Assembly (NCBI GenBank): GCA_003141315.1
Contig: PLLP01000017.1
Location: forward strand, 1 to 64,000
DNA from: Phycisphaerales bacterium
Lineage (GTDB): Bacteria > Planctomycetota > Phycisphaerae > Sedimentisphaerales > Anaerobacaceae
Reading direction: 5' to 3'
DNA length: 64,000 nucleotides
Position numbers and translations under genes: made by a program. Shown one piece after another: positions 1,695 to 2,506 of this stretch; the stretch's first letter is position 1; each line of letters begins with the position of its first letter. A model generated the notes under the pieces. That model worked only from the letters and a program-made list of their open reading frames with translations, had not been told where the DNA came from and did no database searches.

Positions 1695-1698
1695 TTTG

Positions 1699-1723
1699 GT
1701 TAGCCGTTGTCGGCACGACAACG
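1699..1723 (+). repeat. REP-like hairpin overlapping the RAYT stop codon
   Basis: GGTTAGC is followed by an 8-bp perfect stem, CGTTGTCG (1705-1712), a GCA loop (1713-1715) and CGACAACG (1716-1723). The copy at 2481-2506, read on the other strand, has the same layout with compensating base changes in the stem. This points to selection on structure. Confidence 0.75.
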
Positions 1724-2269
1724 AAAAATATCCGTTAACGGTTTAACGAAATCCCAGTTCTGTGCACTCATACCGGCGTTTTCAGGATTGGCGTTTATGT
1801 ATTTTATGGCGGCCTTAAGCACTTCCGTGTCATCAATAAAAACCTTCCAGCAACCTCGCGTCCATGGACTGTGTTTCAATTTTAAGACCAGTGTTGCAGC
1901 ACCTTTGAGCTGATTAACAATATATTCGACTCTATATCGCGAACGAAGAACAAGAACGTGTATATGGTCGTTCATTATCGCACAGGCACCAACTTTAATG
2001 TCTAACCGCTGAACCGCGGTCATGAAACCAGCAGCAACAATCGGCCTTGTATGGTCGTTGATAAAAAACGCCGGCCTGCCCAAAACAGGAATCGCTTCAG
2101 AATAGAAATTCAGAAGCAATTTTTTCGGTGGCGGTATTTGGCGACCATATTTAATCTCACCCAACAAACGGAGCTGGTCATTATAGATTTCTTTGGAATA
2201 AGAACCCCGCGGGTCATTCGGCAGCCACGTGCCGTAAGTGGTAAAAACGGCGTGATACGCAACAATCAT
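1700..2269 (-). CDS. REP-associated tyrosine transposase (RAYT, IS200-like Y1 fold)
   Basis: A 189-residue single-domain Y1 nuclease. It has the HUH metal motif as HIH at residues 102 and 104 (context MNDHIHVLV) and a candidate catalytic Tyr at 157 in KYINANPENAG, as in TnpA_REP proteins. These proteins nick single-stranded DNA at REP hairpins and are usually domesticated, single-copy genes. I chose the ATG at 2269 because AGGAAG lies 7 bases upstream; the longer reading would use a TTG. The stop codon lies inside a perfect 8-bp hairpin (1705-1723). Further hairpins of the same design lie beyond the 5' end (2286-2506), so gene and repeats form one unit. There is no companion orfB. Confidence 0.88.
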   Translation of the reverse strand: MIVAYHAVFTTYGTWLPNDPRGSYSKEIYNDQLRLLGEIKYGRQIPPPKKLLLNFYSEAIPVLGRPAFFINDHTRPIVAAGFMTAVQRLDIKVGACAIMNDHIHVLVLRSRYRVEYIVNQLKGAATLVLKLKHSPWTRGCWKVFIDDTEVLKAAIKYINANPENAGMSAQNWDFVKPLTDIFRCRADNG

Positions 2270-2285
2270 TAACAATCTTCCTCTT

Positions 2286-2306
2286 GTTTAGCTCGCCTGC
2301 GGCGAG
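2286..2306 (+). repeat. REP-like hairpin upstream of the RAYT
   Basis: A GTTTAG tag (2286-2291) is followed by CTCGCC, a TGC loop and GGCGAG. It has the same GTTTAG-plus-hairpin design as the other copies and lies just upstream of the RAYT start. Confidence 0.7.
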
Positions 2307-2417
2307 CCGGCACGGCTGCTTTTTTCAAAAACATAACCCGAAAAAGCGAAAAAAACAACGATAAAATCAAAAACATACCGGTGTCGTATCGACAAAATAC
2401 TACAGTTGTCGTTCCGA

Positions 2418-2506
2418 TTCGCCTGCGGCGAACTAAACAATAATATCATCAGCGTTCCGCCGAGGGCTAAACGATAATATCGTCGCCGTGCCGGCGACGG
2501 CTAAAC
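2418..2506 (-). repeat. Cluster of three REP-like hairpins, including a 34-bp tandem duplication
   Basis: Three hairpins in inverted orientation relative to the copy at 2286, each followed on the + strand by CTAAAC (the complement of GTTTAG). They are TTCGCC-TGC-GGCGAA (2418-2432), an imperfect stem in the unit 2433-2466, and a perfect CGTCGCCG-TGC-CGGCGACG (2481-2499). Units 2433-2466 and 2467-2500 are diverged 34-bp direct repeats. Together with the copies at 1699 and 2286 they bracket the transposase gene. Confidence 0.75.

Follow-up and report, generated by a model that had tools for sequence, protein, structure and literature searches.

A transposase gene bracketed by tagged hairpins

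The window, meaning the whole 64,000-nucleotide stretch analysed, belongs to a draft genome of an uncultured planctomycete, 2.35 Mb in 25 contigs (96.6% complete). It contains a minus-strand gene for a RAYT-like Y1 (HUH) transposase of 189 aa (1700-2269; ATG at 2269, TAA at 1700-1702), recognized from its open reading frame and from Pfam and NCBIfam matches. The ATG at 2269 was taken as the start because homologs begin M(I/V)IAYH. Five hairpins with a [GA][TG]TTAG tag bracket this gene, as an earlier sequence-only reading of this DNA had described, and all five were found where it had placed them. Among the 26 occurrences of G[GT]TTAG in the 64-kb window, only these five are followed by such a hairpin. 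Two of the hairpins (1698 and 2481) are intact, one (2447) is decayed and two (2286 and 2418) are composite. Apart from the TCGCCTGCGGCGA pair described below, no direct or inverted repeats of note were found around the gene.

The intact hairpin at 1698-1723 (plus strand; GGTTAG-C-CGTTGTCG-GCA-CGACAACG; E 5.6e-8 with the covariance model R1, see below) overlaps the 3' end of the transposase gene, and the complement of its tag (CTAA) provides the stop codon; of 13 distinct homologous genes, 8 end within a tag, with a stop codon that reads TAG on the tag's own strand or TAA on the opposite one. The intact hairpin at 2481-2506 (minus strand; GTTTAG-C-CGTCGCCG-GCA-CGGCGACG; R1 E 1.4e-10) is an identical 26-mer at five other sites in the genome. 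These two copies lie on either side of the Y1_Tnp gene on opposite strands and differ at two stem pairs, with a perfect 8-bp stem in each, as the earlier reading had described. Upstream of the gene, 2286 is the one tagged hairpin on the plus strand; the other three are on the minus strand, with tags that start at 2438, 2472 and 2506, a spacing of 34 bases. When folded as single-stranded DNA, four of the five, including both intact copies, were more stable than shuffled sequences (z -2.8 to -4.1), and the decayed REP at 2447-2472 (minus strand; GTTTAGC-CCTCGGCG-GAA-CGCTGATG; R1 E 0.16) folded no better than its shuffles (z -0.9; 40 of 200 as good).

The two composite hairpins contain in their stems the core of a separate genome-wide palindrome, CGCCTGCGGCG. 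In the plus-strand copy (2286-2319), the GTTTAG tag is followed by the foreign palindrome TCGCCTGCGGCGA (2293-2305), giving a hairpin at 2286-2306 with a TGC loop, and a relic REP half, GCCGGCACGGCTGC (2306-2319), lies directly beyond it. In the minus-strand copy (2403-2438; GTTTAG tag at 2433-2438), the palindrome (2418-2432) occupies the 5' arm of a hairpin at 2418-2438 with a GCA loop, and directly beyond lie a relic REP apex and 3' arm, CAGTTGTCGTTCCGA (2403-2417), the complement of TCG-GAA-CGACAACTG. The palindrome CGCC(TGC/GCA)GGCG with its close variants occurs 28 times in 464 kb of the genome, including window positions 2293-2305, 2419-2431, 12543 and 50360 and further sites in L015-L033. 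Only 3 of the 28 lie near a TTAG tag, two of them being the composites, where the palindrome stands directly after a REP tag beside the transposase gene. Judged from their sequence, 2286 and 2418 appear to be REPs that were struck by another palindrome. Because their stems come from that palindrome, the TGC/GCA loop that they have in common is partly coincidence; of the earlier statement that all five hairpins share a tag and a three-base loop, the tag holds and the loop has to be qualified for these two.

The window transposase has a class 2 Y1 signature and replaced guide-contact residues

The HUH motif of the window transposase is DHIH, and its tyrosine of catalytic type lies in YINANP, which contains the signature Y---NP listed for class 2 Y1 proteins in Table 1 of PMC6006769. 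The residues H102, H104, Y157, N161 and P162 are invariant in seven aligned homologs. The protein matches Pfam Y1_Tnp (E 3.8e-6) and NCBIfam REP_Tyr_transpos (NF047646; E 2.6e-10), the latter at 40.4 bits, under the 80-bit cut-off, with homologs L064 and L069 scoring 60.4 and 51.6 bits; its match to transpos_IS200 (E 1.4e-4) scores 22.1 bits, under a cut-off of 55. The best match of the predicted structure (pLDDT 75) is 4er8, which is TnpAREP bound to a REP hairpin (Z 10.3, rmsd 3.0, 123 residues), and IS608 transposase chains (Z 9.4) fall within the tie margin.

Four residues of E. coli TnpAREP, Q95, E100, H101 and R104, are named for GTAG recognition in the open text of PMC6006769. In a profile alignment to 4er8, they pair with T137, K142, V143 and D146 of the window transposase, all four being replaced, and W94 pairs with W136, so that the tryptophan is kept. 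Of the four replacements, K142 and V143 do not vary among the seven aligned homologs. The genome encodes only three Y1 genes, all mutually diverged: the window gene, which is present as a single copy, a class-3-like gene, and one inside valyl-tRNA synthetase.

Tagged hairpins are dispersed through the genome and enriched between genes

The existence of further tagged hairpins elsewhere in the genome had been set as a test of the REP assignment, and such copies were found. The 2481-type pattern (up to 2 mismatches) gave 12 genome matches vs 0 for a reversed-pattern control, and R1, a model of 26 positions built from 32 hairpins, gave at least 14 sites at E <= 2.3e-7, nine of them on one 425-kb contig. 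Twelve of the 14 strong R1 sites listed lie away from the transposase gene. Counts from R1 and R2 are lower bounds, since no more than 127-150 candidates were scored in each genome.

Hairpins were also scanned in a sample of 464 kb, composed of 20 stretches and the window. A tag-blind scan (at least 8 Watson-Crick pairs, 5 G/C) returned 43 hairpins, 23 of which have a TTAG foot; these 23 comprise about ten unrelated stems. A strong hairpin follows TTAG at a rate of 26.2 per 1000 (38/1453) vs 4.1-14.7 for 18 other tetranucleotides chosen from the 256. Enrichment between genes, for which a test had been proposed, was borne out: of the sample's 28 tagged hairpins, 19 lie between ORFs, vs 10.8% of random 26-mers under a greedy ORF mask, and five of the 19 lie between divergent genes. 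An Rfam search returned no match on the hairpins and one chance match elsewhere (E 0.83). Two intact tagged hairpins lie within long ORFs (L015:4517-4543 and L017:4233-4258) and are candidate in-gene insertions. TTTAG hairpins of unrelated stems, CCCC-stem ones among them, are grouped in mixed arrays at L015:3771-3906, L015:15272-15483 and L033:10567-10800.

The tag is constant and the stem covaries

The alignment used for the analysis of covariation (A2) holds 32 of 58 listed hairpins; exact repeats from the genome itself, CCCC-class rows and a small number of imperfect hairpins (L015:3771, L029:14100, L033:10695, L033:10568, window:2447 and L038:2096) were dropped. TTAG is invariant in the 32 aligned copies, and GTTTAGC is found in 43 of 50 copies, a C usually standing between tag and stem; a pyrimidine immediately precedes the tag in 90% of the 50. 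The expectation of GTTTAG or GGTTAG instead of the GTAG tag was thus upheld and could be refined, the invariant part being TTAG, one base from GTAG. CT and CA, examined as cleavage dinucleotides, were not enriched at any flank position of 50 class-1 and 44 CCCC-class copies. The attC sites of integrons, a candidate suggested by eye from the GTT-like tag, were set aside, as GTTTAG does not fit their core-site form.

Stems are far more variable than loops or tag, and the claim that the hairpins covary was confirmed on the 32 aligned copies, with two-sided change at seven of eight stem pairs and a covariation score of 0.496 vs 0.171 for shuffled alignments (0/500) and at most 0.118 for slid partners. 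The rows had been chosen for pairing (at least 7/8), which inflates the share of paired cells; a test on unselected tags guards against this bias. Of 65 [AG]NTTAG tags located no more than 300 bp from one of nine such transposase genes, 34 are followed by a perfect stem of at least 6 bp, vs 4 of the 489 at other places in the own genome. The tag appears to be the conserved part of the element and the stem the free part. According to the open text of PMC8266576, the Sm system loses cleavage on changes to tag bases three and four, and with CTAG cleavage is only reduced; since TTAG keeps TAG and alters the first base, it is plausible by this analogy that TTAG could serve as a working guide sequence.

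Tag and gene are linked in relatives

A homolog of the window transposase at E <= 1e-3 was found in 28 of 60 genomes, and nine genomes, including the own genome, carry a strong homolog (at least 54% identity across most of its length). Metagenome assemblies of Planctomycetes and Phycisphaerae are the source of the gene's named relatives; two of the six named loci (L064 and L066) duplicate L035 and L038 and were left out of the counts. Tagged hairpins lie within a few hundred bases of the gene at 12 of 13 distinct homologous loci (38-75% protein identity). All eight strong homologs outside the own genome, L042 among them, are flanked by tagged hairpins, as are L065, L067 and L069; the last, only 38% identical, keeps GTTTAGC before a wholly different stem. 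The sole exception is L068 (58% identical), which has no tagged hairpin beside the gene. A different repeat, CCTGG-TTCCGAC-GCA-GTCGGAA, lies on both sides of this class-1 homolog (L068:1721 and 2772). The genes neighbouring the transposase in the window had no convincing match at any other homologous locus, and neighbours are common within two groups of loci, L036/L038/L067 and L035/L065/L041.

All nine genomes with a strong homolog have R1 matches (at least 5-106). R1 was built with rows from seven of the nine; G019 and G058, which contributed none, have at least 18 and at least 56 matches. Among the other 51 genomes, in which no strong homolog was detected, at least 11 likewise have five or more R1 matches, for which gene loss or incomplete assemblies could account. 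The association of homolog and hairpins gave Fisher p-values of 1.1e-5 overall and 3.8e-4 within the two families concerned, values that are only descriptive because the genomes share ancestry.

A second TTAG lineage and a class-3-like gene

A second RAYT lineage, type 2 (about 30% identical; most of L043-L063), usually has [AG][TG]TTAG and then CCC...GGG stems on the flanks of its genes; these stems also covary (two-sided change at 4 of 8 pairs in 11 rows). It has the TTAG tag in common with the window system and differs from it in that the CCC start and GGG end stand directly at the tag, in its loops of 3-6 bases and in its separate position in the tree. Type 2 forms one branch (96/95) and class 1 a weaker one (80/63); the rows resembling class 3 fall with type 2 (91/89). 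The own genome has at least 18 matches to the CCCC-stem TTTAG hairpins, although a type-2 RAYT gene was not detected there; the only Y1 genes that it encodes are the three named above.

The class-3-like Y1 gene of this genome (G000:C10:175853-176483; L003; motif YVKNGQ) lies between CAGA-footed repeats, CAGAGCCGCGAACNNNAGTGAGCGG, with 15 genome copies (up to 2 mismatches) vs 0 in a reversed control. This CAGA foot agrees with CnGA, the foot that the open text of PMC6006769 gives for class 3 Y1 proteins.

A probable REPtron of a TTAG tag class

The single-copy gene and the tagged hairpins very probably constitute a REPtron, that is, a RAYT/TnpAREP with cognate REP hairpins of a TTAG tag class, in which the protein would bind, cleave and mobilize the hairpins. 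The hairpin would extrude when the DNA is single-stranded, for example on the lagging-strand template, and a RAYT dimer would grip its foot, reading the [GA][TG]TTAG tag both for recognition and as a guide; the tyrosine would then nick beside the hairpin, which would be moved or copied elsewhere, mostly between genes. That tag and gene stay linked despite changed stems suggests a tag class, not described before, within a known repeat-spreading system. Points that speak against the REPtron reading are the untagged L068 locus, the 11 or more genomes with hairpins and no detected strong homolog, the modest copy number in the own genome, the REP_Tyr_transpos score under its cut-off and the lack of CT or CA enrichment at the flanks; nor was an empty site seen.

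That the hairpins are intrinsic terminators or RNA-stabilizing hairpins at gene ends, with the transposase as an incidental neighbour, is highly improbable. Most of them are intergenic (19/28), at least five T follow within eight bases of the stem in 4 of 11 class-1 sample copies, and the CCCC-stem class is usually followed by TT. However, the T-run is absent from 7 of the 11 on the tag strand and from all 11 on the other; this absence, together with an intergenic position that includes divergent gene pairs (5/19), where no terminator is needed, argues against terminators. Nor are a fixed six-base tag and identical dispersed 26-mers features of terminators, and Rfam had no match at the hairpins. 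An ordinary IS200/IS605 insertion sequence, whose subterminal hairpins the flanking repeats would then be, has the Y1_Tnp fold in its favour, along with the sub-threshold transpos_IS200 match (22.1 vs 55 bits) and the near tie of the IS608 chains with 4er8. We give this explanation very little credence, as IS200/IS605 elements carry Y---Q and exist as near-identical multiple copies, whereas the window protein has YINANP with the class 2 signature, its gene has no second copy among three mutually diverged Y1 genes, and 12 of the 14 strong hairpin sites listed lie away from it.

An old, inactive repeat population, in which the gene has been domesticated for another role and the hairpins are no longer mobilized, deserves more weight and is nevertheless unlikely. 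Three of the five local copies are damaged, the copy number in the own genome is modest (at least 14), and at least 11 genomes have hairpins and no detected strong homolog. Against this stand the identical 26-mers at six sites, the compensatory changes kept across genera and the intact catalytic residues.

We compared the putative REPtron with the GTAG REP/RAYT REPtrons of Proteobacteria (E. coli and Stenotrophomonas), as described in the open text of PMC2817692, PMC3733652 and PMC8266576. Both have the same kind of single-copy Y1 HUH protein with Y---NP, hairpins tagged at the 5' foot on both sides of the gene in tandem and inverted arrangement, dispersed and mostly intergenic copies, and stems that vary with compensation. 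Unlike the GT[AG]G tag of those systems, the window tag is [GA][TG]TTAG, the first base of the tetranucleotide being changed from G to T; the conserved tag is longer, usually with a C between tag and stem, and the four contact residues of E. coli TnpAREP are replaced. On account of the tag, the contact residues and the one curated cut-off that was failed, the system was filed as a TTAG-tag variant rather than as a GTAG REPtron. Class 3 Y1 proteins of Planctomycetes and Acidobacteria, as treated in the open text of PMC6006769, resemble the window system in phylum, in their many atypical hairpins and in a W followed by T or A, and differ from it in having Y----Q and a CnGA foot. No TTAG-tagged REP was found in the literature searched, which included the open text of PMC3733652, PMC6006769, PMC2817692 and PMC8266576.

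We tentatively suggest that the tag rather than the stem carries specificity, that the TTAG readers of Planctomycetota are a separate branch whose guide-contact residues changed in step with the tag, and that one enzyme may serve several unrelated stem families per cell. If specificity is indeed borne by the tag, this would explain how CCCC-stem TTTAG hairpins are kept where no type-2 gene was detected. The natural swap from GTAG to TTAG is paralleled by replaced contact residues in more than a dozen genes, which makes the choice of tag and cleavage site by RAYTs testable by exchanging tags and residues. Screens limited to GT[AG]G feet would miss a Planctomycetota REP population.

Y1 domains inside other genes

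The third Y1 gene of this genome is a RAYT-like Y1 domain (HUH PNHVH, tyrosine motif YVLSNP) that lies in frame within valyl-tRNA synthetase, before the VATTRPETMLGDTA segment. The own copy (G000:C14; L071, minus strand; 1359-aa ORF, L001/L072) was the one analysed with Pfam, and copies in other genomes are L070/L077 and L073-L084. The domain is flanked in frame by palindromic GTGFQPV/HGQDARAT-type peptides. A match of at least 54% identity in a long ORF was found in 15 of 99 genomes, and valyl-tRNA synthetase motifs surround the domain in 13 of the 15, representing 12 genera, one of them incomplete (480 aa) and all without stops. Literature searches found no paper on a Y1 domain within valyl-tRNA synthetase. 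The RAYT lineage of this insert is also present in frame in two other ORFs (L085, 1381 aa; L086, 1372 aa), again between repeat-coded peptides, and by eye these host ORFs resemble DNA methyltransferase or restriction-type proteins.
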